From: Gemmatimonadota bacterium
GTDB taxonomy: Bacteria > Gemmatimonadota > Gemmatimonadetes > Gemmatimonadales > GWC2-71-9
DNA length: 43,005 bases
Direction of reading: 5' to 3'
Assembly: GCA_011390645.1 (NCBI GenBank)
Contig: JAABRY010000002.1
Coordinates: forward strand, 1-43,005
The notes under the pieces are model-generated. The model was not told where the DNA came from, did not search any database, and was given only the letters and a program-made list of their open reading frames with translations. This document shows positions 2,091 through 37,755 of the stretch, piece after piece. Positions within the stretch are counted from its first letter, which is position 1, and the number at the start of each line of letters is the position of its first letter. The position numbers and the translations under genes are program-made.

Positions 2091-2274
2091 GGTCGTAGGT
2101 CGTAAGTCGTAAGTCGTAAGTCGTAAGTCGTAAGTCGTAGGTGAACTGAAGCCGGCCTTCTGGATGGGAAGCCGGCTTCGCTGTTCCTAGGACCTATGAC
2201 CTATGACCTATGACCTATGACCTATGACCTATGACCTATGACCTATGACCTATGACCTATGACCTATGACCTAC
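2091..2274. repeat. Inverted heptamer arrays around a terminator hairpin (locus A)
   Basis: Seven tandem units of RGTCGTA occupy 2091-2139, then a hairpin GAAGCCGGC/GCCGGCTTC (2148-2156 and 2171-2179), then twelve tandem units of GACCTAY (2191-2274). The right arm is close to the reverse complement of the left arm, so a transcript could fold into a long stem capped by the inner hairpin. The hairpin sits between convergent genes (porin and phoR) and probably works as a two-way terminator, though the T-run is weak. The phoR stop codon TAG (2271-2273 on the minus strand) is inside the last unit. Confidence 0.9.
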
Positions 2275-3881
2275 GACCCCAGGGGCCACCACGTCACAAT
2301 CGTCGTCCCCTGCCGCGGTATGCTCTCCGCATGCACCCGTCCGCGATGCGCCTCCACGATGTGCCGCACGATGGCGAGGCCGAGTCCGGTGCCGCCTTCC
2401 TCGCGGGAGCGTGAGGCATCCACCCGGTAGAAGCGCTCGAAGATGCGGGGCAGGTGTTCGGAGGGAATGCCGGTGCCGTCATCCGCGACGGCAAGTCGGA
2501 CACCATTGCCGTCGCGCGTCGCGCGGATGGCCACGTTCCCGCCGTCAGGCACGTATCGCATCGCATTGTCCACGAGGTTCGTGAGCACCTGTCGGACGGC
2601 ATCCGGGTCGGCATTGATGGTCCCGACGTCCTCGGCGATGTCGACGGCCAGCGTGATACCGCGCGCCTCTGCCCGATCCGTGAAGAGGTGCAGCGAGTCG
2701 CTCGCGAGCGGCCCCAGCTCGATCGGCTCCAGGTGCGGCGTCCAGCGCCCGGATTCGATGCGCGAGAGGTCGAGCAGGTCGTCCACGAGCCGCTGCATCC
2801 GCTTGGCGTTCGCGACGATCGTGCCGAGAAACCGCGCCTGGGTGGCCTCGTCGACATCGCCCTCTGCCAGCGTTTCGGCATACCCGGAGATGCTGGTGAG
2901 TGGGGTCTTGAGTTCGTGGGACACATTCGCGACAAAATCGCGACGCACCGACTCCAGGCGACGCACTTCGGTGAGGTCATGGAGGACCAGCACGGCTCCC
3001 CCCCCCTCCAGCGAGCGGGCGTTGACTTGCAGCACCCGATTGTCGAGCTCGACCTCACGGCCATGAATGGCGGTACCGTCCAGGACTTCGTCGACGGCCT
3101 CGCGTGCGGCCTTCGCACGGAAGAGGGTGCGGAGGTCGGGAAGGGGCGCGTCCGGCGTGTAGCCCAGCAGGCGGCGTGCGGCGGGATTGGCAATCACGAT
3201 GCGGCCCTTCGGGTCGGCGGCGACGATCCCCTCGACCATCGCGTCGACGATCGCGGTGCTGCCCGCCTTCTCGCGTCGCAACTCCTCGAAGCGTTCGGCC
3301 AGTTGCCGGTTCATCTGACGCAACGCCTGCACAAGTGCATCCACTTCGGGGATGCCGGAGCGCGGGAAGCGCGGCAGTGCCCCGGCCGCAATCGCCCGCG
3401 CGGCACCGCTCAACGCGACCAACGGCGAGGCAATGCTGCGGCCGGCGATGAACGCCAGCACGAGCGCCACCAGAAGCGCGAGCAGGGCCGCACCGGAGAT
3501 GGAACCGCGGGTCCGGCGCACCGCCTCATCCACGCCCTCCAGCGGTGCGCTGACTTCGACCAGCCCGGGCCCCGCCTCGACCTGTACGGTGACGACCTTC
3601 TCTGCGTCGAGCGAGTCGCCCGAGGCGTATTCCGCCCCGCTTGAGTCACGCACGACGATGCGGTGGGTGCTTTGCACCCCCATGCGCTGGATGGCGCTCG
3701 CCCACCGGGCGGGATCGGCAGGGAGCACCTCGGCGACCAGACGGGCTTCGCGCTCGAGCGTGGTGCGCACCTCGCGTTCGAGTCCGGTCCGCAACGCGCG
3801 CTCGGACCCCCACGCGAGGACGAGGAGGGTGAAGACGACGATGGTGAAGGTGCCCAGAACCAGCCGGCTCGCGAAGTTCAC
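2271..3881 (-). CDS. phoR: PhoR-type sensor histidine kinase
   Basis: A 536-residue inner-membrane kinase. Membrane segments lie at about 8-24 and 129-149, enclosing a periplasmic domain of about 100 residues. A HAMP-like linker follows, then a PAS domain at about 205-305 (AIVDAMVEGIVAADPKGRI). The HisKA motif FVANVSHELKTPL puts the phospho-accepting His at 322. The ATPase domain shows NLVDNAMRY, DDGTGIP and GGTGLGLAIV boxes. It would autophosphorylate and pass phosphate to the PhoB-like regulator; its gene start overlaps the end of phoB by four bases. PhoR identity rests on this layout plus the neighbouring pstS and phosphate porin. Unlike E. coli PhoR, the sensory region between the membrane segments is large, as in Bacillus-type PhoR. 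The stop codon is supplied by a heptamer repeat. Confidence 0.9.
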   Translation of the reverse strand: MNFASRLVLGTFTIVVFTLLVLAWGSERALRTGLEREVRTTLEREARLVAEVLPADPARWASAIQRMGVQSTHRIVVRDSSGAEYASGDSLDAEKVVTVQVEAGPGLVEVSAPLEGVDEAVRRTRGSISGAALLALLVALVLAFIAGRSIASPLVALSGAARAIAAGALPRFPRSGIPEVDALVQALRQMNRQLAERFEELRREKAGSTAIVDAMVEGIVAADPKGRIVIANPAARRLLGYTPDAPLPDLRTLFRAKAAREAVDEVLDGTAIHGREVELDNRVLQVNARSLEGGGAVLVLHDLTEVRRLESVRRDFVANVSHELKTPLTSISGYAETLAEGDVDEATQARFLGTIVANAKRMQRLVDDLLDLSRIESGRWTPHLEPIELGPLASDSLHLFTDRAEARGITLAVDIAEDVGTINADPDAVRQVLTNLVDNAMRYVPDGGNVAIRATRDGNGVRLAVADDGTGIPSEHLPRIFERFYRVDASRSREEGGTGLGLAIVRHIVEAHRGRVHAESIPRQGTTIVTWWPLGS

Positions 3882-4585
3882 TTCGTGCGCGCGCCCCGGT
3901 CCATGGACTTGAAGCGGTAGCCGAAGCCCCGCACGGTCTCGATCATCGGTCCCAACTCCCCGAGCTTGGTACGCAGCCGTTGGACGTGCATGTCCACGGT
4001 CCGCGTCTGGATGTCCGGCTGGGCATCCCAGACGGTCTCGAGGAGCTGCGGGCGTGACTGGACGCGGCCCCGTCGCTCCACGAGTGTCACTAGGAGCTTG
4101 TACTCGGTGGCGGTCAGGTTCAACTCCCGGCCATCAAGCAACGCGCGGTGCGCCGCCCGATCGATCGTCAGCGGACCGGCGACCAGCGTCGAACCGGCTG
4201 CGACGGCGGGCGCGGCGAGGCGACGCAGGAGCGCCTGGACCCGGAGCGCCAGCTCTGCCGGGGAAAACGGCTTGACGAGGTAGTCATCCGCGCCGAGTGT
4301 GAGTCCCTTGATCCGATCCGGCTCCTCGCGTCGGGCGGTCAGCAGGATGACGCCAACGTCGCGCGTCTCCTCCCGCTTGCGCAGCTCGGCGAGCACTTCA
4401 TACCCGGAAACGCCGGGCAACATGAGGTCGAGGACCACGATGTCGGGCCGCTCCTCGCGCGCCGCCTTGAGCGCCTCGGGGCCACTCGACGCCGTCGACA
4501 CCCGATGCCCCGCCTTGGCGAGATGGTAGGCCACGAGGGCGGTAATGTCGGGCTCGTCGTCCACGACAAGGATACGGTGCGTCAT
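3878..4585 (-). CDS. phoB: PhoB-type response regulator
   Basis: A 235-residue OmpR/PhoB-family regulator starting MTHRILVVDDEPD. The receiver domain has the acidic pair D9/D10, phospho-acceptor D53 in VLDLMLPG, a conserved Thr in ILLTARREE, and Lys in LVKPFSP. The C-terminal winged helix carries LNLTATEYKLLVTLVERRGRV and ends TVDMHVQRLRTKLG...VRGFGYRF, the signature of DNA-binding OmpR-family domains. It probably controls phosphate-starvation genes such as the nearby pstS and porin. It is translationally coupled to phoR (overlap of four bases) and lies 21 bases after an ArsR-family gene. Confidence 0.92.
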   Translation of the reverse strand: MTHRILVVDDEPDITALVAYHLAKAGHRVSTASSGPEALKAAREERPDIVVLDLMLPGVSGYEVLAELRKREETRDVGVILLTARREEPDRIKGLTLGADDYLVKPFSPAELALRVQALLRRLAAPAVAAGSTLVAGPLTIDRAAHRALLDGRELNLTATEYKLLVTLVERRGRVQSRPQLLETVWDAQPDIQTRTVDMHVQRLRTKLGELGPMIETVRGFGYRFKSMDRGARTK

Positions 4586-4606
4586 CTCGGGGCTCCGAAG
4601 GGCCGG

Positions 4607-4960
4607 CTAGACCGCGGCAAGGCGGTGACTGGTGTGGGTGCGACTGCGCGCCATCGCGCTCTCGCGTTCAGGACGGTACTCCGGCTCCTTGCCGATCGTC
4701 TCGATGATCTCGGCCAGCAGCTTTCCGGCGTTGCCATCGGCGCGTTGCAACCGGTAGAGCACGAACTTCGCGACCGGCGTGTCGCGGACCAATCCCTGCT
4801 GTCGGAGCACGCCGAGATGCCGCGAGACCGTAGGCTGAGGCAGGTCGAGAATGACCTGGAGGTCGGACACGAAGAGTGGTGCCGCGGCGAGGCAGTTGAG
4901 GATGCGGAGCCGGGTCGGCTCCGCAACCGTCTGGAGGAGGTCAGCAGGACTGAGTGCCAT
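4607..4960 (-). CDS. ArsR-family winged-helix regulator heading the phoBR operon
   Basis: A 117-residue protein with the ArsR-fold helix-turn-helix: LLQTVAEPTRLRILNCLAA, then DLQVILDLPQPTVSRHLGVLRQQGLVRD and the wing AKFVLYRL. The usual metal-binding ELCVCDL motif is replaced by LFVSDL, so thiol-based arsenic sensing at the alpha-3 site is unlikely. It lies 21 bases upstream of phoB on the same strand and is probably cotranscribed with phoB-phoR. The C-terminal tail is Arg/Glu-rich. A role in phosphate or arsenate response is plausible from position only; it could also be a redox or non-metal sensor. Confidence 0.85.
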   Translation of the reverse strand: MALSPADLLQTVAEPTRLRILNCLAAAPLFVSDLQVILDLPQPTVSRHLGVLRQQGLVRDTPVAKFVLYRLQRADGNAGKLLAEIIETIGKEPEYRPERESAMARSRTHTSHRLAAV

Positions 4961-5044
4961 ATGCGCTCAAACGAATACGTCCCCGGACCAAACCCCGCAA
5001 GCGCCAATGCGTTGCATCTGGGCACCTTGTGACCGGATATTTAC

Positions 5045-5284
5045 GTGGTGACTTCCCCAACCATTCCCGTCTTCGTGAACGGACGTGTCCTCGCCGCCGT
5101 TCCCGGCACCTCGTTGGCCCAGCTCCTGGGCGAGCATGAACCCACCCTCCTCGCGTCAATCCTCGACGGTGCGCCAGTGACCGATGCCCGCGTCCTGCCA
5201 GTCGATCCGGACGCCCCGGTGTATTCCGGGGCGATTTATCGGGTGAGCGCCCGCGGCCGTCTCTCGGATGCGTCCGATGCGTGA
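5045..5284 (+). CDS. Small beta-grasp-like protein of unknown function, first gene of the nucleoside operon
   Basis: A 79-residue acidic protein starting at GTG 5045 or the next GTG at 5048. The opening IPVFVNGRVLAAVPGTSLAQLLGEH resembles the first strands and helix of ThiS/MoaD or 2Fe-2S ferredoxin-type beta-grasp folds (VNG...PGTSLxxLL). It has no cysteines, so it cannot hold a 2Fe-2S cluster, and no C-terminal GG, so it is not a normal sulfur carrier. It overlaps the adenosine deaminase gene, pointing to cotranslation and a linked role. The fold is a guess from pattern; the function is unknown. Confidence 0.6.
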   Translation: MVTSPTIPVFVNGRVLAAVPGTSLAQLLGEHEPTLLASILDGAPVTDARVLPVDPDAPVYSGAIYRVSARGRLSDASDA

Positions 5285-6296
5285 ACGCCTGCACCGGATG
5301 CCCAAGGCGGAACTGCATGTGCACCTCGATGGCTCGCTCCGTCCGACGACCATGCTCGAGCTCGCGGGTACCGCCGGCATCTCCCTCCCGGCGGCCGAGC
5401 CCAGCGCCCTCGCGGCGTGGATGCTGGTCGACGACGCGCGCAACCTCGAGGAGTACCTGGCGCGCTTTGACGTCACCATCGCGCTCCTGCAGACGCCGGA
5501 GGCGATCGAACGCGTGGCGTACGAGATGGTGCTCGATGCGCATGCCGACGGACTGCGGTACCTGGAGGTCCGCTACTGCCCGGCCCTCAGCACGCGAGAG
5601 GGGCTGGCCCTCGACGATGTGATCCGGGCCGAATGGCGTGGCTTGCAACGGGGGATGGCCGAGACGGGCGTGATCGCGCGGATCATCAACTGCTCCCTCA
5701 GGCACTACGACCCCGCGGTGTCCGTCCAGCTGGCCGAACACTCGGTGCGCATGCGAGATCACGGCGTGGTCGGGTTTGATCTTGCGGGCGGTGAGGCCGG
5801 ACGCCCGCCCCAACGGCACCGGGAGGCCTTCGACATCGCCGCCCGCGGTGGGCTCGGCATCACGATCCACGCGGGCGAGGCGGCCGGATGGGAGAGCATC
5901 TTCGAGGCGATCCATGCCTGCCACGCCACGCGCCTTGGCCACGGCACGCGGCTGTTCGAGAACCCCGACCTGCTCGCCTACGTCCGCGACCGACGCATCC
6001 TGATCGAGACCAACATCACCAGCAACGTGCAGACACACGCCGTGGCGTCCGCGGCGGTGCATCCGGTGCGACAGTACGTGGATGCCGGCTGCGCCGTGAC
6101 GTTGTGCACGGATAGCTGGTTGATGAGTGGCGTGGTGCTGACCGACGAGTACGAGCTGGCCCACAATGCACTGGGCTTCACGCCCACCGAGCTCGAGACG
6201 ATGGCGTTGGCCGCGTTCGAGCACGCCTTCCTTCCGTGGCCCGAGCGGAGCGCCCTGCTGGCGAGCGTCCGGGCCGATCTTGCGAGCCTCCCGTGA
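5268..6296 (+). CDS. add: Adenosine deaminase (variant active-site motif)
   Basis: A 342-residue amidohydrolase. The N-terminal MPKAELHVHLDGSLRP holds the metal-binding HxH pair, HAGE carries a further His and the catalytic Glu, and HATRLGHGTRL is the conserved GHG segment. The last metal ligand lies in CTDSWLMSG; the common form is NTDDP, so the second Asp that contacts purine N7 is Ser here. Related TDNRLMSGT forms are known in actinobacterial enzymes, so this is a subgroup rather than a dead enzyme. It converts adenosine to inosine, feeding the phosphorylase at 7678. Starts at 5268 or 5277 are both possible; neither has a clear ribosome binding site, and both overlap the preceding gene. 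Confidence 0.88.
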   Translation: MRPMRERLHRMPKAELHVHLDGSLRPTTMLELAGTAGISLPAAEPSALAAWMLVDDARNLEEYLARFDVTIALLQTPEAIERVAYEMVLDAHADGLRYLEVRYCPALSTREGLALDDVIRAEWRGLQRGMAETGVIARIINCSLRHYDPAVSVQLAEHSVRMRDHGVVGFDLAGGEAGRPPQRHREAFDIAARGGLGITIHAGEAAGWESIFEAIHACHATRLGHGTRLFENPDLLAYVRDRRILIETNITSNVQTHAVASAAVHPVRQYVDAGCAVTLCTDSWLMSGVVLTDEYELAHNALGFTPTELETMALAAFEHAFLPWPERSALLASVRADLASLP

Positions 6297-7681
6297 CCTT
6301 CCTCCTCGCCACGCTGCAAGACCAGACCGCCGCCGAACGCTTCGCGGCACTCAGCGTCGGACTCGACATCCCGATCGGCCAGCGCCTGATCGGCGTGCTC
6401 GGTATCGCCGTGATGATCGGGTTGGTGGTGCTGATGAGCGCCGACCGCAAGCGGATCAACTGGCGACTCGTGGCGACGGGACTCACGCTGCAACTGGTCT
6501 TCGGCCTGATCGTCCTCAAGACGGAAATCGGCCGGGCCTTCTTCCAGTCACTGGGGGGGGCAATCACCGCGCTGCTCGGGTTCCAGGAACAGGGCGCGCG
6601 CTTCGTCTTCGGCAACCTCGTGCAGAGCAACGTCCCCGTCGGCACGCCCGACGCGGTGGGCTCGCTCGATGGTTCCCTCGGGATGGTCGCCAACACCGGG
6701 GCCTACTTCGCCTTCAACGTCCTCCCCACGATCATCTTCTTCTCCGCGCTGATGTCGGTGCTCTACTACATGGGCATCATGCAATGGGTGGTGAAGGGGC
6801 TCGCATGGGGGATGCAGAAGACGCTGCGGACGTCAGGCGCCGAGACGCTGTCGGCGTCAGGCAACATCTTCCTCGGGCAGACCGAGGCGCCGCTCCTGAT
6901 CAAGCCGTTCATCGGCACGATGACGCGCTCGGAACTCAGCACCGTGATGGTCGGCGGCTTCGCCACGGTGGCGGGCGGCGTGCTCGCGGCGTACGTCGGG
7001 ATGCTGGCCGGTGTCCTGCCGGGCATCGCCAGCCATCTGCTCGCCGCCAGCGTGATGAATGCGCCGGCAGGGCTGTACCTCAGCAAGATTCTCGTGCCCG
7101 AGACCGGCACGCCGGTGACGGCGGGATCGCTCGACTTGCAGGCCGATGCCACCAAGGCCGAATCGAGCGTGGTCGAGGCGGCGGCCAATGGTGCAGCACA
7201 GGGCGTGCAACTCGCGATCAACGTCGGCGCGATGTTGATGGCGTTCATCGCACTGGTCGCGATGCTCAATGCCGGGCTCGGGTGGGTCGGTGACCTGGTC
7301 GGCATGGCAAACCTCTCGCTACAGGCGATCCTCGGCTTCCTGCTGAAGCCGCTCGCCTGGGTGATGGGCGTGCCGTGGCAGGATACCTCGTACGTTGGTG
7401 GCCTGATCGGGCTGAAGACCTCGCTCAACGAGTTTGTCGCCTACGCACAGTTTGCCGGCGACCTCGGCAGTGGTCAGGTCCTGGAGCCGCGCTCCGCGAT
7501 CATCCTCACGTATGCGCTGCTCGGGTTCGCGAACTTCTCGTCCATCGGCATTCAGATCGGTGGCATCGGCGGCCTCGCACCCGAGCGTCGCCCTGAGATC
7601 GCGAAGCTCGGCCTCAAGGCGATGATCGCCGGCAACCTCGCCGCCTTCATCTCCGCAACCCTCGCCGGGATGTTGGCATGA
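6293..7681 (+). CDS. nupC: Concentrative nucleoside transporter (CNT/NupC family)
   Basis: I place the start at GTG 6293, which overlaps the adenosine deaminase stop as GTGA, giving 462 residues. Many hydrophobic segments are visible, with CNT signatures: GNIFLGQTEAPLLIKPF, MNAPAGLYLSK, and GLKTSLNEFVAYAQF followed by TYALLGFANFSSIGIQIGG. These are the substrate- and cation-binding loops of the family, which imports nucleosides with H+ or Na+ across the inner membrane. It sits between the deaminase and the phosphorylase in a tightly coupled operon, so its substrates are probably purine nucleosides. A longer in-frame ORF begins at 6236 inside the deaminase gene and is not needed. Confidence 0.93.
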   Translation: MTFLLATLQDQTAAERFAALSVGLDIPIGQRLIGVLGIAVMIGLVVLMSADRKRINWRLVATGLTLQLVFGLIVLKTEIGRAFFQSLGGAITALLGFQEQGARFVFGNLVQSNVPVGTPDAVGSLDGSLGMVANTGAYFAFNVLPTIIFFSALMSVLYYMGIMQWVVKGLAWGMQKTLRTSGAETLSASGNIFLGQTEAPLLIKPFIGTMTRSELSTVMVGGFATVAGGVLAAYVGMLAGVLPGIASHLLAASVMNAPAGLYLSKILVPETGTPVTAGSLDLQADATKAESSVVEAAANGAAQGVQLAINVGAMLMAFIALVAMLNAGLGWVGDLVGMANLSLQAILGFLLKPLAWVMGVPWQDTSYVGGLIGLKTSLNEFVAYAQFAGDLGSGQVLEPRSAIILTYALLGFANFSSIGIQIGGIGGLAPERRPEIAKLGLKAMIAGNLAAFISATLAGMLA

Positions 7682-8514
7682 CCCACCTCGTCACCACACC
7701 AGATGTGATTGCGCATGCTGCCGACACCGTGCAGGCCGCACTTGATGGCCGCAACCCCACGGTCGCGATCGTCCTCGGCAGCGGCCTCGGTCGACTCGCT
7801 GACCGCGTGACCGATGCGGTGCGGGTCTCCTACGCTGACCTGCCGGGCTTCCATGTGCCCACGGTCGAGGGCCACAAGGGTGAACTCGTCTGCGGCACGT
7901 TGGGTGGCACCACCGTGCTGATGCAGAGTGGGCGTTTCCACATGTACGAAGGTCACTCCGCGTCGGATGCAGTGCTGCCGATCCGCGTCTTCGCGACACT
8001 CGGGATCAAGAGCCTGATCGTGACCAATGCGGCAGGTGGGATTCGCCGCACCTTTCAGGCGGGGACGCTGATGGTGATCAGCGATCACCTGAACCTCACG
8101 GGCCGCAATCCGCTCGAGGGTCCGTCGCTTCCGGGTGAGACCCGCTTTCCGGACATGACCGTGGCGTACGATGCCGAGCTGCGTCAGCGGGCCAAGGACG
8201 TCGCAGCGGCGCAAGGAATCACGCTCGAAGAGGGTGTCTACGCCGGGCTCCTCGGCCCAACCTACGAAACGCCCGCCGAGGTGCGGATGCTCGAACGCCT
8301 TGGCGCAGATGCCGTCGGGATGAGCACGGTCGCCGAGGTGATCGCGGCGCGTGCACGCGGGATGCGGTGCCTGGGGATTTCACTGGTGACCAACCCCGCC
8401 GCAGGCACCTTTGCAGGCGTGCTGGACCACGCCGACGTCATGGCAGTCGCGGCGGAGGCGGGGAAGAAGCTGGCGGGGGTGGTGGAAGGAGTTGTGGTAG
8501 GTCGTAGGTCGTAG
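7678..8514 (+). CDS. punA: Purine nucleoside phosphorylase (PNP/MTAP family)
   Basis: A 278-residue enzyme overlapping nupC by ATGA. Family signatures are IVLGSGLG, FHVPTVEGHKGEL, RFHMYEGH, VTNAAGG, HLNLTGRNPL, GPTYETPAE and GADAVGMSTVAEVIAARARGM. It cleaves inosine or guanosine with phosphate into free base and ribose-1-phosphate, completing the pathway import, deamination, phosphorolysis. This is the trimeric class rather than hexameric DeoD. The natural end seems to have been extended: the last residues (VVVGRRS) and the TAG stop are encoded by a run of GTCGTAG heptamers (8494-8514). Confidence 0.94.
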   Translation: MTHLVTTPDVIAHAADTVQAALDGRNPTVAIVLGSGLGRLADRVTDAVRVSYADLPGFHVPTVEGHKGELVCGTLGGTTVLMQSGRFHMYEGHSASDAVLPIRVFATLGIKSLIVTNAAGGIRRTFQAGTLMVISDHLNLTGRNPLEGPSLPGETRFPDMTVAYDAELRQRAKDVAAAQGITLEEGVYAGLLGPTYETPAEVRMLERLGADAVGMSTVAEVIAARARGMRCLGISLVTNPAAGTFAGVLDHADVMAVAAEAGKKLAGVVEGVVVGRRS

Positions 8515-8676
8515 GTCCCAGTACCTCGTCATCCCGAGCGTAGCGAGGGATCTCCACGGGGCCCACACGACTGAGCAAGGGTATCGCATTCGCAGGCACT
8601 GGAGATCCCTCGCTACGCTCGGGATGACGGGTCGCGACCAACCACGACCTACGACCTATGACCTATGACCTATGAC
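8494..8676. repeat. Inverted heptamer arrays enclosing a perfect 28-bp palindromic element (locus B)
   Basis: Left arm: three units (GTGGTAG, GTCGTAG, GTCGTAG) at 8494-8514. Right arm: CCACGAC, CTACGAC and three CTATGAC at 8642-8676. Between them is an element at 8528-8628 whose 28-base ends (GTCATCCCGAGCG...AGGGATCTCC and its exact reverse complement at 8601-8628) flank a 45-base loop. The arms enter both neighbouring genes: they supply the punA stop (8512-8514) and the thiD stop and last residues (8656-8676). The element probably doubles as a terminator between these convergent genes. Confidence 0.9.
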
Positions 8677-9468
8677 ATCGACCCCATGCCACACCGGCCC
8701 ATGCCCCCCCCCGAGTCCCGGGGCGGCGCGCATCGCGTCCTGGAGGTAGGTGAGGGCGCGTGGGACGATGGCGTCGAGTGCGAGGCCCCGCGCGAGACCG
8801 GCGGTGATCGCGGCGGAGAGGGTGCAGCCGGTACCGTGCGTGGCGCGGGTGTCGAGCCGAGGGCGGGTGAAGCGTGTGGTGCTGGCGGGGGTGACGAGGA
8901 GATCGACGAGCTCGTCCCCCGTGAGATGCCCCCCCTTCACCAACGCGGCACCGGCGCCCATCGCGACGAGAGCCTCACCCGCCCGCTGCATGGCGTCAGG
9001 GTCGCGGACGGGGAAGCCCACCAGCAGTTCGGCTTCATCAAGGTTCGGCGTGACGCACGCGGCAAGCGGCACGAGGCGGTCGCGCACGGCCTCCACGGCA
9101 TCCGCATCGAGCAGCCGATCCCCCGATGTTGCCACCATCACGGGGTCGAGTACGTAGTGCGGCCAGCCACGCTCGGCGATGGTGGCGGCGACCAGTTCCA
9201 CGAGTGGCTTGGTGGCCAGCATCCCGGTCTTGAGGGCGTGGGGGGGGAGATCCTCGGCGAGCGCATCGAGTTGCGCACTGACCACATCGAGCGGCACGGG
9301 ATGAACGGCACGGACACCGAGGGTATTTTGCGCCGTGATGGCGACGATGGTGGAGGTGCCGAAGACCCCCCAAGCCGCAAAGGTCTTGAGGTCAGCCTGG
9401 ATCCCGGCGCCGCCACCCGAATCTGAACCCGCGATGGTAAGTGCAATACGCGTCTTGCCGTCGTCCAC
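8656..9468 (-). CDS. thiD: Hydroxymethylpyrimidine/phosphomethylpyrimidine kinase
   Basis: I place the start at GTG 9468, preceded by GGGAGG, giving 270 residues. A longer frame to 9591 would overlap the divergent gene at 9487 and adds no conserved sequence. Ribokinase-fold signatures are [53 protein letters not shown] and [12 protein letters not shown] with the anion-hole and catalytic Asp region. It phosphorylates HMP and HMP-P in thiamine synthesis. No other thi gene is in the window. The end (VIGHRS then TAG) is encoded by CTATGAC heptamers read on the minus strand, so the repeat has rewritten the C-terminus. Confidence 0.93.
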
Positions 9469-9486
9469 CCTGCCTCCCGAGTCCCG

Positions 9487-10248
9487 ATGTCGCTGCCGAC
9501 CCTGATCCGCGACCTGCACCGCCGCAAGGCGAGAGAGCGCCGTGACCTCGCGCTTGCCGAGGGGGTGCGTCTGGTCGAAGAGATGCTGCAAGCAGGGGTG
9601 ACGTGCAAGGGCGCCGCCGTGTCACCGCAACTCGCGACGACACCACGCGGCCGCGCGCTGCAGGAATCACTGGACGCTGCCGCGGTGCCGGTCACGCACT
9701 GCAGCGAGGGCGAACTCGCCGAACTCGCCGCCACCGAGCATCCGCAGGGCGTGGTCGCAGTCTACGCTCCGCGTGCCTGGACACTCGATGACCTTCGTCC
9801 GACGCCCGGGCATCCGCTGGTGCTGCTCGACGCGGTGCAGGACCCTGGCAATGTCGGGACGATCGCGCGCACGGCCTTTGCGCTGGGGGCGTCGGGGCTC
9901 ATCGCCCTCCCGGGCACCGCTGATCTGGTGAACCCCAAGGTGGTGCGGGGTGCGATGGGGGCGTTGTTCCGCCTGCCGCATCTCGCGGCCGATGATGTTG
10001 GGGTGGCAAGTTGGGTTGCATCCTCCGGCATCAGTCTCTGGGTAACCGACGTGAACGGTGAACGGGTGGGACATGGGGGTGAGGGGGAAACGATCGCCTT
10101 GGTGCTCGGCAACGAAGGGGCCGGGGTGCGCGAGGAGTGGGTCGCGCGCGCGGACCGCCTCGTCTCCATTCCGATCCGCGACGAGGCGGAATCGCTCAAT
10201 GTGGCGATCGCCGCAGGCATCATGCTTCACCTGACGGGGGTGCGGTGA
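9487..10248 (+). CDS. SpoU/TrmH-family RNA 2'-O-methyltransferase
   Basis: A 253-residue protein with an N-terminal substrate-binding domain (about 1-90; [17 protein letters not shown]) and a C-terminal SPOUT domain. The three SPOUT motifs are present: [26 protein letters not shown] and [17 protein letters not shown]. These bind S-adenosylmethionine in a trefoil knot. It methylates ribose in rRNA or tRNA; RlmB- or TsnR-like 23S rRNA methylation is possible but the target cannot be told from sequence. It is divergent from thiD (18 bases apart), and its stop overlaps the pilD start as GTGA. Confidence 0.92.
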
Positions 10249-11045
10249 ACGAGGTCTACACGGACGTGGTCATCACCTATCCGGCGATCTGGTACACGGT
10301 GGTGGTCCTCTTCGGACTCCTGCTCGGCTCGTTCCTCAACGTTTGCATCGTGCGGTGGCCGGCACTCGAGTCGGTGGTGTCCCCGCGCTCACGCTGCCCG
10401 CAATGCACCAACCTGATCGCCTGGTACGACAACATCCCGGTGGTGAGCTGGCTCGCGCTCGGGGCCAAGTGCCGCCACTGCAAGCTGCCGATTCCGGTGC
10501 GCTATCCGCTCGTGGAACTCGGCGTGGGCCTCATCTGGGGGTGGGCGGCGTGGCAGTACGGGCCGTCGGTCGAGATGCTGCGCGCGGCGGTGTTCTTCAC
10601 GATCCTGCTCGGGATCGCGATGACCGATGCACGCGAGTACATCATTCCCGACGAGTTCTCACTCGGTGGCACCGCGCTCGGCATCCTCTTCGCCTTCGCC
10701 GGCGGTGACCTCCCCTGGATGCAGGCGGTACTCGGTGCGGTGGTGGGCTACGGGCTGCTCTGGCTCATCGCGGTCATCGGGTCGAAGGCGTTCGGAGAAG
10801 ACGCCATGGGCGGTGGGGACGTCAAGATGATGGCGATGATCGGCGCCTTCCTCGGGTGGCACGGAGTCCTCCTCTCGCTCTTCCTTGGCGCGCTCCTCGG
10901 TACCCTGATCTTCCTCCCGCTCAAGCTGATGGGCCGCGAGAAGCTGGTGCCGTTCGGGATCTTTCTCGCCATCGGCGCGGCCGCGTGCTGGGTCGCGGGC
11001 GGGACGATCATTCATTGGTACCAGACGACGATTCTCGGGGTATAG
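10245..11045 (+). CDS. pilD: Prepilin peptidase / N-methyltransferase (type IV pilus or type II secretion)
   Basis: I choose GTG 10245 (GTGA overlap with the methyltransferase stop), giving 266 residues. The N-terminal half has GSFLNVCIVRWP and two CxxC pairs, CPQC and CRHC, in the cytoplasmic zinc-binding methylase loop. The aspartyl protease residues lie in TDAREYIIPD and GGGDVKMM. About eight membrane segments follow the known topology. It cleaves and N-methylates prepilin-like leaders. No pilin or secretion gene is adjacent, so its substrates are encoded elsewhere. Confidence 0.94.
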   Translation: MNEVYTDVVITYPAIWYTVVVLFGLLLGSFLNVCIVRWPALESVVSPRSRCPQCTNLIAWYDNIPVVSWLALGAKCRHCKLPIPVRYPLVELGVGLIWGWAAWQYGPSVEMLRAAVFFTILLGIAMTDAREYIIPDEFSLGGTALGILFAFAGGDLPWMQAVLGAVVGYGLLWLIAVIGSKAFGEDAMGGGDVKMMAMIGAFLGWHGVLLSLFLGALLGTLIFLPLKLMGREKLVPFGIFLAIGAAACWVAGGTIIHWYQTTILGV

Positions 11046-11050
11046 CTGTG

Positions 11051-12241
11051 ATGCGCACTCTCCTGCTCGCTTTCGTACTGCTCGTCACCGCCTGCCGCGG
11101 TGATGCCCCTCGCACCGCGAGCGAGCTCACCCAGGAACAACTCGAGGCGATGGTCGATTCGCTGATGCCCAGCGTCGCACGTGCCGCCGGCCTCGAGTTC
11201 AAGGAGACGCCGCGCTCGGCCGTGCGCACGCGGGAGCAGGTGCGCGAGTTCCTGCTCGAGAAGCTTGCCACCGAGTTGCCGCCGGAGCGGCTCGATGGCC
11301 TGGTGAGCGCCTATCGCCTCCTGCAGTTGCTGCCGGATACGCTCGATGTGCGCAGTCTCTTCGTGGACCTGTACACCGAGCAGGTGGCCGGATTCTACGA
11401 CCCGGAATCCTCCACGCTCTTTGCGGTAGGTGGTTCGGACCCGATGTCGCTGAAGCTGATCCTGGCGCACGAATTGGTGCACGCGCTGCAACATCAGTAC
11501 GTCCCGCTCGACTCGATCCTCAATGACCGCAGTGATGCCGATCGACTTGCCGCAGCCCAGGCGGTCCTCGAGGGGCACGCGACGCTGGCCTCATTCCAGG
11601 CGATCGTCCCCGATACCGACTTCATCGGCGATGACGGGATCTGGAGTACGGTGCGTGACCAGATCACGATGCCGCGCGAGGGAATGGAGGTCTTCAACCG
11701 CACGCCACTGGTGATCCGCTCGGCGCTGATCTTTCCGTACCTCGAGGGGTCGGAGTTCATCCGCTGGTTCCGCGTGAACCGCCCCGATGCGCAGCCGTTC
11801 GGCGCCGAGATGCCCCATTCGACCGAACAGATCCTGCATCCGGAACGCTACGCGCGTGGTGACCTGCCGGTCGAGGTGCGTTTCACCGACGACACGACCG
11901 ACGTCATCCACGAGGACACCTTCGGCGAATTCGAGATGCACGTGCTCCGTAGCGTGCTGGTGGGGATCGACCAGGTCGCGACCGATCTCCCGCTCGGTTG
12001 GGGGGGGGACCGCATGCGCGTCTACCGCACCCCCGACGGCCCGGCCCTCGTCTGGCTCACCGCGTGGGATGAGCCGCGCCATGCCGAAGGATTCCAGGCC
12101 CGCGTGCTCGGTCGCTTCCTCGCGAAGGACCGTCCCGGCTATCGCACGTCGATCGAGGCGATGCGGATCGCCGGCAAGCCGGGGGTACGCGTGACCGTGG
12201 CGCCGCAGGAGTGGAGTCGGTGGGCGGCGTTGCCGCAGTGA
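11051..12241 (+). CDS. Gluzincin-like metallopeptidase lipoprotein of unknown substrate
   Basis: Start at ATG 11051 (GTG 11048 directly upstream is possible); 396 residues. The lipoprotein signal is MRTLLLAFVLLVTACRG with the lipobox Cys at residue 15. A zinc-binding HELVH in LILAHELVHALQHQY is followed about 33 residues later by EGHAT, matching the HExxH-plus-Glu layout of gluzincins. The segment AGFYDPESSTLFA before it is typical of extracellular peptidases with a structural Asp/Tyr turn. The gene is six bases after pilD and may be cotranscribed. The stop TGA overlaps the first unit of a GATTGGT heptamer array. The peptidase fold is well supported; the substrate is unknown. Confidence 0.8.
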   Translation: MRTLLLAFVLLVTACRGDAPRTASELTQEQLEAMVDSLMPSVARAAGLEFKETPRSAVRTREQVREFLLEKLATELPPERLDGLVSAYRLLQLLPDTLDVRSLFVDLYTEQVAGFYDPESSTLFAVGGSDPMSLKLILAHELVHALQHQYVPLDSILNDRSDADRLAAAQAVLEGHATLASFQAIVPDTDFIGDDGIWSTVRDQITMPREGMEVFNRTPLVIRSALIFPYLEGSEFIRWFRVNRPDAQPFGAEMPHSTEQILHPERYARGDLPVEVRFTDDTTDVIHEDTFGEFEMHVLRSVLVGIDQVATDLPLGWGGDRMRVYRTPDGPALVWLTAWDEPRHAEGFQARVLGRFLAKDRPGYRTSIEAMRIAGKPGVRVTVAPQEWSRWAALPQ

Positions 12242-12396
12242 TTGGTGATTGGTGATTGGTGATTGGTGATCGGTTGTCATCCCGAGCGAAGCCCGCGAAG
12301 CGGGCGCAGTCGAGGGATCTCCACGCGTGCCCACGCAACGGGGCAACGGTATCCCATTCAGATGCTATGGAGATCTCTCGCTACGCTCGAGATGAC
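12240..12396. repeat. GATTGGT heptamer array plus palindromic GTCATCCCGAGCG element
   Basis: Five tandem GATYGGT units (12240-12274) begin in the stop codon of the upstream gene. They are followed at once by a palindromic element at 12276-12396: left end GTCATCCCGAGCG..., right end GGAGATCTCTCGCTACGCTCG...GATGAC (12369-12396). The left arm has an extra hairpin (GCCCGCGAAGCGGGC) between CGAGCG and CGAGGGAT. The inner part resembles that of the element at 8528-8628 (both contain a GTATCNCATTC block), so they are one family. It lies between convergent genes and fills the whole gap. Confidence 0.85.
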
Positions 12397-12422
12397 AGGC
12401 GCTTTGGGGCTCCGTCCTCCGC

Positions 12423-13886
12423 CTACAGCATCCGATTGATCCCGAACGCGATCGCCCCCACCATCGCGCCGAGCAGGTAGCCCAGCTTCACGATCAGGTC
12501 GAGTTCCTTCTGCGTCACGTTGCGGACGATCTCTTCCATGCGCTGCGTGCTGAAGCCGAGCACCTTCTCCTCGACCATTGCGGGGATCGAGAGGCGCGCC
12601 ACGAGCAGCGGGACCTGACCCTCGACCCAATCCCAGGCACGTTCGTGCGCGGTGCGGCGGAGCTGTGCGGTGGCTTCCGGGCCGAGCCACGCGGCGGGTC
12701 GGCCGATCGGGCGGTCGAGCAGGGCAGTGCCGCTCTTCGCGACGGCACGTGCGACGGCTTCGCGTCCGGCGTCGCTTTCCAGGGCGCGCGCGAGCATTTC
12801 TGGCGCGCGATCGCGCAAAGCACCGCTTGCGCCTCGCATCAGCGTGCCGCGCAGCGCATCGCTGCGCAGCGCGCCGAGCAGCCACCCGCTCACGGTCTCT
12901 TCCAGCTTGTTCGCGCGCTCGGTGCCAAGCGCCGCGAAGCGCTCGGACAGCGGCTTCTCGAGCACGGCGTGGATGCCGCGGTTGATCGCGGCCTGCACGC
13001 GGTCACGCATCGCCGGGGACTTCACCGCCGCGGCAAGTCGGTCCACCCCGGTGCTCTCGAGTGAGCCGAGCAGCTTCTCCATGGTGCGTTCGTTGACCAT
13101 CACCTTCGCGAGCAGGCGCTCGTGCAGCATCATCTGCCGGACGGCGCCGTCGAAGGTCTCGCGCAGCGCCGCAGCAACGGTGCGGCGCGCTTCACCGTCG
13201 CCGAGCAAGCCACCGAGTTGTTCGACCGCGCCGGGGATCGCGTCGCTGATCCCCTGTTCGACCACGGGGACCAGGCCGGCCGGAATCCGTTCACCGAGCG
13301 GGGCGGTGTCCGACGCCAGCTCCGCGAACTGTGCGGTCACCAGGCGACGCACACCCGCCGTCACCTCCGGGCTCTCGGCCACCGCGCTGAGCCAGCGATC
13401 CACCGACTCGCCGCCCTCGCCATCGAGCTTGTCCGCCCATCGCGAGGTCACCGCCACAAAGTCAGGTGAGGCGACATACTCGGCGAGCGAGCCGGACAGG
13501 CGTCCGCCGAGATCCGTCAGTGCGCGATCCACCGAGGCGCGCGCCTCGGTGTCGAGCCGCTCGCCGAGGGGGCCGTGTTCCTGTTCGAGCATCTGGTCGA
13601 GCACGCCGTCGAGCGCTTCGGCGAATGCCGCACGCACCTCCGGGGTGCGCAGCCGCTCGGTCAGGTCGGTCGGGGTGAGGAGCTTCTCGCCCACCACCTT
13701 GCCGATCGCCTTCGCCAGCCGGGCCTTGTTCTTCGGGATCGCCCCATGGAAGGGGAACCAGAGGACGCGGCGCTCGTCATAGGGATGAAAGAGCATCCAG
13801 ACGGCGATGGCATTGGTCAGACCGCCAGAAATCGCGCCGACACCGATAGTGATCGCCGCGGCGACCCAGGGGGAGGAGGAGTCCAT
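12423..13886 (-). CDS. DUF445 family membrane protein
   Basis: ATG 13886 gives 487 residues. The first membrane segment contains AITIGVGAISGGLTNAIAVWMLFHPY, the hallmark of DUF445 (YheB/YjiN-type) proteins, and a second hydrophobic segment closes the C-terminus (GYLLGAMVGAIAFGINRML). Between them lies a long, charged, helical region with repeated units of the kind ...LAxAL...DRVQAAINRGI.... The protein is likely anchored by its two ends, with the helical part in the cytoplasm or periplasm. The function of the family is unknown. TAGATT at 13900-13895, eight bases before the ATG, and no ribosome binding site suggest a leaderless message. A longer frame up to 14462 runs antisense through ffh and is rejected. 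Confidence 0.88.
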   Translation of the reverse strand: MDSSSPWVAAAITIGVGAISGGLTNAIAVWMLFHPYDERRVLWFPFHGAIPKNKARLAKAIGKVVGEKLLTPTDLTERLRTPEVRAAFAEALDGVLDQMLEQEHGPLGERLDTEARASVDRALTDLGGRLSGSLAEYVASPDFVAVTSRWADKLDGEGGESVDRWLSAVAESPEVTAGVRRLVTAQFAELASDTAPLGERIPAGLVPVVEQGISDAIPGAVEQLGGLLGDGEARRTVAAALRETFDGAVRQMMLHERLLAKVMVNERTMEKLLGSLESTGVDRLAAAVKSPAMRDRVQAAINRGIHAVLEKPLSERFAALGTERANKLEETVSGWLLGALRSDALRGTLMRGASGALRDRAPEMLARALESDAGREAVARAVAKSGTALLDRPIGRPAAWLGPEATAQLRRTAHERAWDWVEGQVPLLVARLSIPAMVEEKVLGFSTQRMEEIVRNVTQKELDLIVKLGYLLGAMVGAIAFGINRML

Positions 13887-13944
13887 ATAGTTGGAATCTA
13901 CGGAGGGGCGGGGGGTGGTGTTTCGGAATGGGACGATTCGCTCC

Positions 13945-14054
13945 AAGCCGGCGGCGTCAGCCGCCGGACCCCCCTCCCGATAGTGGATCTCACCAGCCGG
14001 CGGCGTCAGCCGCCGGGTCTCGGGCGTGGTCCGGCGGTTGACACCGCCGGCTGG
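13945..14054. repeat. Cluster of three REP-like palindromes
   Basis: Three copies of a 24-base imperfect palindrome with core CCGGCGGCGTCAGCCGCCGG lie at 13948-13967, 13993-14016 and, in reverse orientation, 14031-14054 (CCGGCGGTTGACACCGCCGG with CTGG tail). One end carries CCAG, so copies can be oriented. They fill the 220-base gap between the divergent DUF445 and ffh genes. Same family as copies at 19385-19535 and 23173. Confidence 0.85.
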
Positions 14055-14106
14055 ATGCATCTCCCCCTCTAGCCCCCACCTGCACTTTCCGCTATCCTTC
14101 TGGGCT

Positions 14107-15444
14107 ATGTTCGATGAGCTCTCCTCCAAGCTGACCGACACCCTCAAGCGCCTGACCGGGCGCGGGGTGCTCACCGAGGAGGCGGTCCGCGAAGGACTCC
14201 GGGAGATCCGGCGTGTCCTCCTCGAGGCCGACGTCTCATTCGATCTGACGCGCGAGTTCCTGGAGCGGGTGCAGGAGCGTGCGGTCGGGCAGGAAGTGCT
14301 CAAGGCGGTCCGGCCCGGGCAGCAGCTGGTGAAGGTGGTGTACGACGAGTTGGTGGCGCTACTGGGCGAGACCCAGGCGCCGCTCTCGCACGCGAGCGTG
14401 CCGCCGACGATCATCCTGATCGTGGGGCTGCAAGGCAGCGGCAAGACCACCACCGCCGGCAAGCTGGCGAAGCGGTTGAAGTTGGAGCAGAAGGCGCCGT
14501 TCCTGATTGCCGCGGACGTGTATCGTCCGGCCGCGATCGATCAGCTCCGGACGCTGAGCGAGCAGGTGCAGGTGGGGTTCCACGGCGAGCCGGGCGAGAC
14601 CGATGTGGTCGCGATCGTCAAGCGCGGGATCGAGGCGGCGGGGAAGGCCCGTGCGCGCACCGTGCTCGTGGACACCGCCGGTCGGTTGCAGATCGACGAG
14701 ACGCTGATGCAGGAACTTGTCCGGCTCAAGGCCGCGACGAAGCCGCATGAAGTGTTGCTCGTCGCCGACGGGATGACGGGTCAGGACGCGGTGCGGATCG
14801 CCAAGGGCTTCCATGATGCCCTCGGCGTCACCGGCGTGATCCTGACCAAGATGGACGGCGATGCCCGCGGTGGCGCGGCGCTCTCCATCTACGGTGTCAC
14901 CAAGGCACCGATCAAGTATGTCGGCGTGGGTGAGACGCTCGATGCGCTGGAGCCGTTCCATCCCGACCGGATGGCGGGACGGATTCTCCAGCAGGGCGAC
15001 ATCCTCTCGCTGGTCGAGAAGGCGCAGGAGCAGGTCAGCGAAGAAGACGCCAAGCGGCTGGCCCGCAAGGCGACGTCCAAGAAGGGCCTGGACCTCGACG
15101 ACTTCCTCGCCTCGATGCGGCAGATGCAGAAGATGGGGCCGCTGAAGAACGTGTTGGGCATGCTGCCGGGGGTGAATCCGGCGATGCTCAAGAACGCCAA
15201 CATCGACGAGAAGCGCCTCAAGCATGTCGAGGCAATCGTCCTGTCGATGACCAAGGCCGAGCGGCGTGAGCCCTCGCTGATGAACGGGTCGCGCCGGGCC
15301 CGTGTGTCCCGTGGCTCGGGACGACCGGTGCAGGAAGTGAATCAACTGCTCAACCAGTTCGAGCAGATGCGCAAGATGATGAAGACCGCGGGGAAGCCGG
15401 GGATGAAGATGCCCTTCGGTGGACGTCCGTTCCCCCCGCGCTGA
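14107..15444 (+). CDS. ffh: Signal recognition particle protein Ffh
   Basis: ATG 14107 gives 445 residues, usual for the family. The N domain begins [16 protein letters not shown]. The GTPase G domain has [18 protein letters not shown] (P-loop), [22 protein letters not shown] (G3) and [14 protein letters not shown] (G4/G5). The methionine-rich M domain (from about residue 320) contains [19 protein letters not shown] and the RNA-binding [11 protein letters not shown]. It binds signal sequences on ribosomes and targets membrane proteins to FtsY. First gene of the ffh-rpsP-rimM-trmD-rplS operon. TATCCT at 14093-14098, eight bases upstream, with no ribosome binding site, suggests a leaderless start. 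Confidence 0.97.
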
Positions 15445-15467
15445 ACCGTACCAGGAGAGGCACCACG

Positions 15468-15707
15468 ATGGCTGTTCGTATCCGCCTGCGTCGCGAAGGA
15501 CGCAAGAAGCTCCCGATGTACCGTATCGTCATCGCCGACAAGACGTCGCCGCGTGATGGCCGCTTCATCGAGACGATCGGGACCTATCGCCCGAAGTCGC
15601 AGACCGACACCCTGACGCTCAACGTCGAGAAGGCGCGTGAGTGGCTGGCCAAGGGCGCGACGCCGAGCGACACGGTCGCGTCGCTCCTGAAGCAGGCCGG
15701 CGTCTAA
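15468..15707 (+). CDS. rpsP: 30S ribosomal protein S16
   Basis: A 79-residue protein starting [35 protein letters not shown], the highly conserved S16 N-terminus, followed by IGTYRP and the [25 protein letters not shown] helix. It binds 16S rRNA early in 30S assembly. AGGAG lies about ten bases before the ATG, in contrast to the upstream ffh start. It is 23 bases after ffh and five before rimM, in the standard operon order. Confidence 0.98.
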
Positions 15708-15712
15708 CTCCG

Positions 15713-16240
15713 ATGGCTGACGCGGCGGCGCCCCCGATCGTCGTCGGGCGGGTGCGCAAGCCGCACGGCCTGAAGGGCGAGCTGGCGATCTTCCCTCTCA
15801 CCGATGACCCGGAAGCGGTCTACGTGAAGGGGCGTGAAGTGTCGCTGCTCGATCTGGGCGGCAAGGTGGTGGGAACGATTCAGATCGAGGCCGCGCGGAT
15901 CTATCATCGCGAATGCCTCCTCCGTCTCGAGAACCACTCCTCGCGCGAGTCGGTGGATGCGTACCGCGGGTTGTTCCTTGGTGTGCCGCGCGAGGCGATG
16001 CCGCCCCTCGCGGACGACGAGATCTACCAGCAGGACCTGGTGGGCTTCGCGGTGCGCAACGAGGCAGACGAGCCGCTCGGGATCGTGAGCGCGGTGTACG
16101 ACTTGCCGGCGGGTGCGACGATCGAGGTGCAGGGTCCGCAGCGGGAGTTCCTGCTGCCGTACCGCACCGAGTACGTGAAGCTGATGGATCGCGAGGGCCG
16201 GCGGTTGGTGGTGTCGGTGCCCGACGGTCTGATCGACTGA
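15713..16240 (+). CDS. rimM: 16S rRNA processing protein RimM
   Basis: ATG 15713 gives 175 residues. The N-terminal beta-barrel has VVGRVRKPHGLKGELAIFPLTDDPE, and the PRC-barrel part has YQQDLVGFAVRNEADEPLGIV and the terminal LLPYRTEYVKLMDREGRRLVV. RimM binds S19 and aids maturation of the 30S head. Placement between rpsP and trmD is the classic order. An in-frame upstream extension to 15641 overlaps rpsP and is not conserved. Confidence 0.95.
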   Translation: MADAAAPPIVVGRVRKPHGLKGELAIFPLTDDPEAVYVKGREVSLLDLGGKVVGTIQIEAARIYHRECLLRLENHSSRESVDAYRGLFLGVPREAMPPLADDEIYQQDLVGFAVRNEADEPLGIVSAVYDLPAGATIEVQGPQREFLLPYRTEYVKLMDREGRRLVVSVPDGLID

Positions 16241-16247
16241 GGTCGTC

Positions 16248-17356: not shown

Positions 17357-17452
17357 GTCGTAGGTCGTAGGTCGTAGGACCTTGAGGGGCCGGCTCCGTG
17401 GGTAGGACCGGCCCTTCGTGTTTCCTACGACCTACGACCTACGACCTACGAC
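17357..17452. repeat. Inverted heptamer arrays around a terminator (locus C)
   Basis: Three GTCGTAG units (17357-17377), a hairpin AGGGGCCGG/CCGGCCCTT (17385-17393 and 17408-17416) and four CTACGAC units (17425-17452). Same architecture as loci at 2091, 8494 and 37634. It ends the ffh-rplS operon. Unlike the other loci, the next gene is on the same strand, so the inverted layout is not just a result of convergent genes. Confidence 0.9.
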
Positions 17453-23137: not shown

Positions 23138-23164
23138 GTGAGAGTGAGGGGTGAGGGGTGAGGG
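23138..23164. repeat. GTGAGGG heptamer array, left partner of the array at 24539
   Basis: GTGAGA followed by three GTGAGGG units. The inverted form CCCTCAC occurs in the same seven-base phase at 24539-24566, so the two arrays bracket the PAP2-vapCB block. Confidence 0.7.
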
Positions 23165-23172
23165 GGCGAATC

Positions 23173-23196
23173 CCAGCCGGCGGCGTCAGCCGCCGG
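23173..23196. repeat. Single REP-like palindrome
   Basis: One copy of the 24-base family (CCAG end first, core CCGGCGGCGTCAGCCGCCGG), between the divergent SulP and PAP2 genes. Only solitary copy in the window. Confidence 0.85.
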
Positions 23197-23243
23197 TGGT
23201 CCCCCTGAGCGTAGCGCGACGGCCCCCCCGCTACCCTTCCTGC

Positions 23244-33446: not shown

Positions 33447-33477
33447 GGCGGGAAACGTAAGGCTGGGAAGGGAAAAC

Positions 33478-33625
33478 GTGAAACGTGAAAGGGGGTGTGA
33501 ATGTCATCCCGAGCGCAGCGAGGGATCTCCAGTGGTCGCTGTGCACCGATCCGGTCTCGTCGCGAATGGATCCTCTGGAGATCCCTCGACTACGCACCCC
33601 TGCGGGGTGCTGCGCTCGGGATGAC
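33478..33625. repeat. GTGAAAS heptamers plus palindromic GTCATCCCGAGCG element between bioB and bioA
   Basis: Two heptamers GTGAAAC, GTGAAAG (33478-33491) precede a palindromic element at 33503-33625. Left arm GTCATCCCGAGCGCAGCG...ATCTCC (33503-33530). The right arm (33577-33625) is its complement interrupted by a small hairpin GCACCCCTGCGGGGTGC. The element begins three bases after the bioB stop codon on the minus strand. Confidence 0.85.
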
Positions 33626-34620: not shown

Positions 34621-34713
34621 GGTAGGGGGTATCCGGGGCTGGGCGGTTGATGGGAAGATGGAAAGGTGAAACGTGAAAGGTGAAAGGGGAAGGCGGGTCG
34701 GGGACCGTCGCGC

Positions 34714-34719
34714 TATCTT
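34714..34719 (+). promoter_or_regulatory. Probable -10 element of tRNA-Lys
   Basis: TATCTT lies nine bases before the tRNA 5' end, the usual place for a transcript with a very short leader. No good -35 is visible. Confidence 0.4.
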
Positions 34720-34728
34720 TGTATCCAC

Positions 34729-34802
34729 GGGGGTGTAGCTCAGTTGGTTAGAGCATCCGGCTTTTAACCGGCAGGTCGTGGGTTCGAATCCCACCGCCCC
34801 TA
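34729..34802 (+). tRNA. tRNA-Lys (anticodon TTT)
   Basis: 74 bases fold into a cloverleaf. Acceptor GGGGGTG pairs with CGCCCCT (two G-U pairs). D stem GCTC/GAGC, anticodon loop CTTTTAA with TTT, and T arm GTGGG-TTCGAAT-CCCAC follow. Discriminator A; CCA is not encoded. The first anticodon-stem pair is T-C, a mismatch. The antisense yields the well-known false peptide GFEPTTCRLKAGCS. Confidence 0.96.
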
Positions 34803-34874
34803 TCTCCGACAAAGATACCCCTTTCACGTTTCACCTCTAGCGACACCCCACTCACCTTTCACCTCCTCCCCTCC

Positions 34875-37631: not shown

Positions 37632-37633
37632 GG

Positions 37634-37755
37634 GTCGTAGGTCATAGGTCGTAGGTCGTAGGACCAAAGAGGCCGTCACCCCAATCGGGATGCCGGCCTC
37701 TCGCGTTTCCAACCTACGACCTACGACCTACGACCTACGACCTGCGACTTACGAC
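37634..37755. repeat. Inverted heptamer arrays around a terminator (locus D)
   Basis: Four units GTCRTAG at 37634-37661, hairpin AGAGGCCG/CGGCCTCT (37668-37675 and 37694-37701, then TCGCGTTT), and six units (four CTACGAC, CTGCGAC, TTACGAC) at 37714-37755. Between convergent mltD and the second transglycosylase gene. Confidence 0.9.

Follow-up and report, generated by a model that had tools for sequence, protein, structure and literature searches.

Inverted pairs of heptanucleotide arrays with a constant order and species-specific words at gene ends in a Gemmatimonadota genus

Tandem arrays of seven-nucleotide units (heptads) form inverted pairs of arms around a central core at gene ends across the genome of a Gemmatimonadota bacterium (assembly GCA_011390645.1). 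The stretch analysed, hereafter the window, comprises the first 43,005 nucleotides (nt) of contig JAABRY010000002.1; its source genome (G000) spans 2.93 Mb in 295 contigs, and other G numbers denote compared genomes. The paired-arm layout and its constant order, with a G-rich arm before the core and a C-rich arm after it, are confirmed across the whole genome and do not depend on gene direction. The period is nearly exclusively seven, whatever the unit sequence, the arrays stand at gene ends, and the unit words are specific to species, such that different words occupy both arms at an orthologous site.

Four loci of the window (2092-2277, 8497-8676, 17357-17452 and 37634-37756) had been predicted to share one design, in the same left and right order even where the flanking genes do not converge. 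Both points hold, with GTCRTAR heptads to the left and YTAYGAC heptads to the right of the core at every locus. The flanking genes are convergent at three of them and tandem at 17357, where the order is the same and both rplS and a TauE-like gene lie on the + strand. The parts of the four loci are given below.

2092..2140, + strand: left G-rich arm, GTCGTAG/GTCGTAA x7, 4 nt past the stop of the + strand gene 906-2087
2141..2190, no strand: core, GC hairpin
2191..2277, + strand: right C-rich arm, CCTATGA x12-13, reaching the end of a - strand histidine kinase gene (2271-3881)
8497..8517, + strand: left arm, GTCGTAG x3, inside which the nucleoside phosphorylase frame ends (TAG, 8512-8514)
8527..8629, no strand: core, long palindrome of the GTCATCCCGAGCG...CGCTCGGGATGAC type
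8646..8676, + strand: right arm, CTACGAC/CTATGAC
17357..17378, + strand: left arm, GTCGTAG x3, 3 nt past the rplS stop
17383..17418, + strand: core hairpin
17424..17452, + strand: right arm, CTACGAC x4, upstream of the + strand TauE-like gene
37634..37662, + strand: left arm, GTCRTAG x4, directly past the stop of an SLT/LysM gene
37668..37701, + strand: core hairpin; whole cassette predicted at -79.9 kcal/mol (z -10.7)
37712..37756, + strand: right arm, CTACGAC x4 and variants, adjoining the end of a - strand SLT gene

A search of G000 with GTCRTAGGTCRTAG returned 143 forward and 184 reverse matches and none for the reversed control, which excludes a chance origin. At 17357 the predicted outer stem pairs 17357-17379 with 17423-17445 (-73.5 kcal/mol, z -9.3), and the whole cassettes there and at 37634 are each predicted to fold into a single long stem. 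The phosphorylase reading frame enters its own array (8498-8514) and stops at the third heptad, so that arrays can set the end of a protein.

The period was assessed in an unbiased sample of G000, consisting of 20 contigs picked by number and read over their first 20 kb (129,949 readable bases). Arrays of at least three exact copies numbered 23 at period 7, three at period 14 and one at period 15, with none at any other period within 3-20; repeats of other periods, which might have been equally common, are thus nearly absent (four against 23). The units themselves are diverse, including GTCGTAG, GTGAACG, GTGAAAG, GTGAAAC, GTGATTG, GTGAGGG, TTGGATG and more across all G000 stretches. Tracts of three G are absent from GTCRTAR, GAGAGAC, TGGATGA and GATGACR and present in some words, such as GTGAGGG and GGGAACA. 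Provision of stop codons in three frames was considered as a reason for the heptamer; runs of GTCGTAG, GTCGTAA and GTGAACG hold stops, and it was rejected in general because runs of GAGAGAC, GGAGAAG and TTGGATG have none.

Inverted pairing exceeds direct pairing, as had been anticipated. In the unbiased sample an inverted partner lay within 220 bp for 16 of 26 arrays and a direct partner for 3 of 26, and in 130 control trials with heptamers from other families an inverted partner turned up 14 times. Pairing is nevertheless far from universal, since clusters with a single arm type are common (52 of 93). These clusters were built from arrays of at least 16 nt in all G000 stretches, 280 kb of which were mostly chosen for GTCRTAG arrays; 41 contain both arm types, 31 only the G-rich (R) type and 21 only the C-rich (Y) type. 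A looser partner search (14 nt, at most two mismatches) found an inverted partner for 76 of 125 G000 arrays and none for 49.

The R arm comes first in all 41 two-arm cassettes of G000 and in all 17 of those found among 68 clusters in eight congeners. Two abutting GTCRTAG units followed after 20-50 bases by two CTAYGAC units occur at 12 places in G000, and the opposite order at none. Coordinate lists from the word searches (GAGAGAC contributing G020 only, and TGGATGA and GTGAAMG without some contigs) hold, among the matches listed, 34 pairs with the G-rich arm first and none reversed, at loci partly the same as the genome-wide 12. A weak exception under the looser test is an array between two transfer RNA (tRNA) genes in G020, whose partner has two mismatches. 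Predicted stem energy is equal for either arm order, and pairing strength therefore cannot explain the rule.

In 31 of 41 cassettes the two arms differ by no more than one base, compared with a mean of 16.3 and a maximum of 26 in 2000 shuffles. The other 10 have unlike arms, three differing by two bases (including the locus at 2092 in the window) and seven by three or more, and the order rule is kept in all 10. When unit variants are read from the core outward, 14 of 34 positions match between arms, against 13.0 on shuffling (754 of 2000 shuffles as good), in a test of low power with only 10 cassettes of usable unit variation. Base-by-base copying from one arm to the other is not supported by this result. 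The arms share a word and show no common unit-by-unit history, as if they had been lengthened separately. Selection for pairing is compatible with the unmirrored order because tandem heptads can align for pairing in every 7-nt register. By eye, a locus of another genus (G225, L286) does look mirrored.

The description of the cassettes as arms around hairpins applies to part of them. Among the two-arm cassettes 39 of 41 have a core of at least 8 nt, and 15 of those cores fold with z below -2 (60 mononucleotide shuffles each), a few owing their fold to imperfect heptads left in the core; no strong hairpin is seen in the other 24, and one core position is taken by a tRNA gene. GC hairpins at the ends of convergent genes form several of the cores. 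Compared by eye, the cores are mostly unlike one another, with at least four sharing one palindrome type. Long palindromes of the GTCATCCCGAGCG...CGCTCGGGATGAC type are found repeatedly at gene ends, where some occupy the core of a heptad cassette (window 8527-8629, 12276-12396 and from about 33505; L108 9723-9836; L116 9753-9903).

Codon-usage gene predictions made in this analysis place the arrays between genes and near stop codons. Of 25 arms in the unbiased sample, 18 come after a gene encoded on the arm's G-rich strand, and 17 of these 18 begin between -21 and +19 nt from its stop. The G000 clusters fall into 30 convergent, 45 tandem and 12 divergent contexts, with 6 at an edge; the tandem contexts include 21 two-arm clusters, and of the 38 kb of intergenic sequence (gaps of at least 60 nt) 5.6 kb lies between convergent genes.

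Relatives differ markedly in their words. Among named relatives, the closest one found with rplS is a Gemmatimonadetes bacterium (L143), with 85% identity over residues 37-164. Three-copy matches were counted in the whole genomes of ten congeners, each array giving several matches. GTCRTAR has 253 in G000, 18 in G297 and none in the other eight, and its reversed control one, in G295. GAGAGAC has 150 matches in G219, 61 in G296, 51 in G020, 22 in G298 and 2 in G102; TGGATGA has 37 in G236, 30 in G102 and 6 in G297; GTGAAMG has 101 in G000, 27 in G295, 5 in G020 and 1 in G236, each word being absent from the remaining genomes. GATGACR is confined to G102 (135 matches, none in the other nine). 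A few stray counts could be contamination, as several of the genomes are fragmented and incomplete. In a three-protein tree, in which G236 and G298 have gaps, G000 and G296 are sisters (support 1.0), and the G296 word, GAGAGAC, is absent from G000.

The junction between the phosphorylase and Phos_pyr_kin genes demonstrates the turnover at one place. The word there is GTCGTAG in G000, TGGATGA in G297, GATGACR in G102 and GAGAGAC in G020, each in both arms, the right arm of G020 being imperfect. G295 has only a C-rich arm, and no arms are seen in G219 and G072; G236 has other sequence after the phosphorylase, the G296 contig stops within the gene, and no match was obtained in G298. Palindromes similar to the long window type occur at this junction in G219 and G295. 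Arms behind rplS and behind the LysM/SLT gene are likewise absent from several congeners. In G297 (L235) the gap downstream of rplS holds, in succession, AGTCGTG-type heptads, a hairpin ending in TTTT, runs of two more G-rich words (GTGAGGG and GGGAACA) and a C-rich run, so that several words share a single gap. At another junction a full GAGAGAC cassette in G020 stands between genes that leave almost no gap in G000, G102, G297, G295 and G072. Among 24 genomes of other genera (442,396 bases) no period-7 array of at least three exact copies was found. Shorter arrays located by eye show the same paired-arm layout with other words in G194 (L284 3185-3265) and G225 (L286 2640-2720); these belong to two further genera of the family, and the feature thus extends beyond a single genus.

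The explanation tentatively preferred here, to which we give somewhat less than an even chance, is that a strand-polar mutational process made the heptad arms, any use by the cell being secondary. Nascent DNA would stall as it nears a palindrome or hairpin at the end of a gene, and its G-rich, C-poor 3' end would realign in 7-nt steps, with either its own template or a distant array as partner, lengthening or replacing the local heptad run. If each strand is approached from its own 5' side, the G-rich word would come to lie on the growing strand at both flanks of the core, so that one strand would read G-rich arm, core and C-rich arm for any gene direction. Copying from array to array would spread a few words across many loci, and species would consequently differ in their words. 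Stalling, realignment, copying between loci and the preference for a G-rich 3' end are steps that we infer; together they would account for period, order, dispersal, single arms and unlike arms. A related proposal, slippage over a 7-nt polymerase contact, was made earlier for bacterial heptamers, as recounted in PMC4679880 and PMC4692102.

Several results weigh against this explanation. Selection for pairing would equally give arms that share one word above chance, and the mirror test that appears to separate their histories has low power. The 24 of 39 cores that lack a strong hairpin offer little to stall a fork. The order may also be partly inherited from purine-rich and pyrimidine-rich terminator flanks, as small samples suggest: around array-free hairpins at convergent ends in control genomes (n=10), purine minus pyrimidine is +0.14 upstream and -0.15 downstream, the direction seen in the cassettes, and is near zero or mixed in the other array-free hairpin groups. 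The gene models for this comparison reused the G000 codon table, and some control genomes were poorly covered.

A bolder form of the polar process, which we regard as doubtful, is a genus-wide and possibly dedicated activity that flanks gene-end structures with 7-nt words, always placing the G-rich word on the 3'-growing strand, and rewrites these words across the genome within the lifetime of a species. If true, such rewriting would be a bacterial counterpart of satellite-library turnover.

The main rival, a rather unlikely one in our estimate, is an extended bidirectional terminator or RNA stabiliser. Its arms would pair in read-through RNA, where the long stem would stop transcription, block exonucleases or be cut by RNase III, and selection would keep complementarity while the word drifts. 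The very stable predicted stems at 17354-17455 (z -9.3) and 37632-37757 (z -10.7) agree with such a role, as do the sharing of words between arms of one locus, the enrichment of clusters between convergent genes and near stop codons, and the four words, each in both arms, of four species at the phosphorylase junction. Xanthomonas transcripts, in addition, start or stop more often at repeats capable of forming quadruplexes (G4) than at control repeats (PMC4692102). A stem built by selection is harder to reconcile with the 52 of 93 clusters of one arm type, with arms differing by at least two bases in 10 of 41 cassettes, with an arm order that is neutral for stem energy, with 24 of 39 cores without a strong hairpin and with congeners that lack arms at the same junctions. 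A scan of 1-20000 for consensus T-run terminators also found three sites, none at the three array loci there; the rplS hairpin of G297, by comparison, is followed by TTTT. The original prediction, which is partly supported overall, had offered either a structure used in termination or the product of a mobile or replication-linked process; species-specific word turnover favours the latter. A role in termination is possible.

An improbable alternative is a small mobile or dispersing element, in which cassettes or heptad seeds enter gene gaps as units with arbitrary cores, their activity being supplied in trans. The whole G020 cassette between genes that nearly abut in five congeners would fit this, as would words present at dozens of places in one species and absent from close relatives, and core positions filled by a tRNA gene or by unlike palindromes; the listed cores, mostly unlike each other by eye, and the variable arm lengths argue against a unit that moves. 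Telomerase-like repeat addition is disfavoured, since one of 10 congeners has a match to RVT_1 (one family model) and G102, G020 and G219 have none. Least probable is a signal in the 3' untranslated region, with a protein binding G-rich heptads in messenger RNA after the stop codon, for despite the 18 of 25 arms behind a gene and their tight spacing from its stop, a C-rich second arm also lies behind tandem genes (21 two-arm clusters), where no known transcript reads G-rich, and words are replaced wholesale between species.

Intergenic tandem heptamers are familiar from cyanobacteria as short tandemly repeated repetitive (STRR) sequences. Heptanucleotides are reported to be the most abundant long simple repeat class in most bacterial genomes surveyed (PMC4679880). 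The paired-arm layout had been thought to lie outside any described class, a view that has to be given up, as convergent inverted pairs of GGGAATC heptamers, on opposite strands and near the upstream open reading frame, were already published for two Xanthomonas genomes, with counts of 70 and 75 (Rehm et al., 2015; PMC4692102). We read these convergent pairs as having the G-rich arm first. Both systems share period 7, a mostly intergenic position and a bias to stop codons; the Xanthomonas repeats likewise prefer the coding strand downstream of open reading frames, with divergent gaps under-represented, and most loci are common to the two species while length and sequence vary (PMC4692102). Their function could not be identified by the authors (PMC4692102). 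Xanthomonas, however, has a single word type with G-tracts that forms quadruplexes in vitro (PMC4692102), whereas the present genus has many words per genome that differ between species, mostly without tracts of three G, and orthologous sites holding different words, each in both arms. An order rule that extends to unlike arms, and a tRNA gene standing in the core, are seen here and were not met in the accessible part of the Xanthomonas account (PMC4692102).

Other heptamer systems are less similar. Nostoc GGGGA(C/T)T repeats are also intergenic tandem heptamers, but few paired repeats are reported (PMC4692102). The TAACTGA repeats of Beggiatoaceae are abundant, intergenic and restricted to one lineage, but are direct and lie mostly upstream of start codons, with one inverted case (PMC4679880). 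Many loci of Geobacter metallireducens carry tandem heptanucleotides, and certain putative regulator sites are paired on opposite strands; the repeats are, however, proposed regulatory elements, and the part of the account available does not mention an order rule or species turnover (PMC2700814). Bidirectional intrinsic terminators resemble several of the present cores in being GC hairpins at convergent gene ends, but here the heptads flank the hairpin from outside, and T-runs at the window loci appear to be weak or missing. Heptamers of Gemmatimonadota were not found in the literature among the matches listed, in a search made largely without subscription papers, and Gemmatimonas is not named in the accessible part of PMC4060949. 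The arrays thus fit the Xanthomonas kind in period, place and order, and are new in having species-specific words that differ at orthologous sites, most of which could not give a quadruplex of three G-tetrads. They amount to a natural experiment, in which the same junctions carry different words in different species under a fixed order accounted for neither by quadruplexes nor by stem stability; ideas of slippage, copying and termination become directly testable in this way, with a bearing on why bacterial heptamers have seven bases and why they are paired.

The window contains further arrays beyond the four loci, among them the cassette with a tRNA gene in core position.

12238..12274, + strand: lone G-rich arm, GTGATTG x5, spanning the stop of the + strand gene 11048-12241 and followed by another long palindrome; no right arm seen
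23144..23165, + strand: lone G-rich arm, GTGAGGG x3
33474..33490, + strand: short AAACGTG array, at the junction that has a TGGATGA cassette in G297
34661..34689, + strand: left arm of GTGAAAS heptads, before tRNA-Lys
34729..34802, + strand: tRNA-Lys(ttt), in the core position of a heptad cassette
34818..34835, + strand: right arm of TTTCACS heptads, after tRNA-Lys

An Rfam scan of the window at gathering thresholds returned two tRNAs and nothing else. Within 34661-34864 of the window, tRNA-Lys is also bracketed by an inverted repeat of ATCTTTGT and ACAAAGAT, and in G297 tRNA-Lys is flanked by other heptads. In the sampled stretches of the genus 3 of 31 tRNAs have an exact array within 200 bp. 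A separate repeat family is represented in gene gaps of the window (19380-19643 and about 23174-23197) by several near-copies of a palindrome resembling GCCGGCGACGTCAGTCGCCGG.

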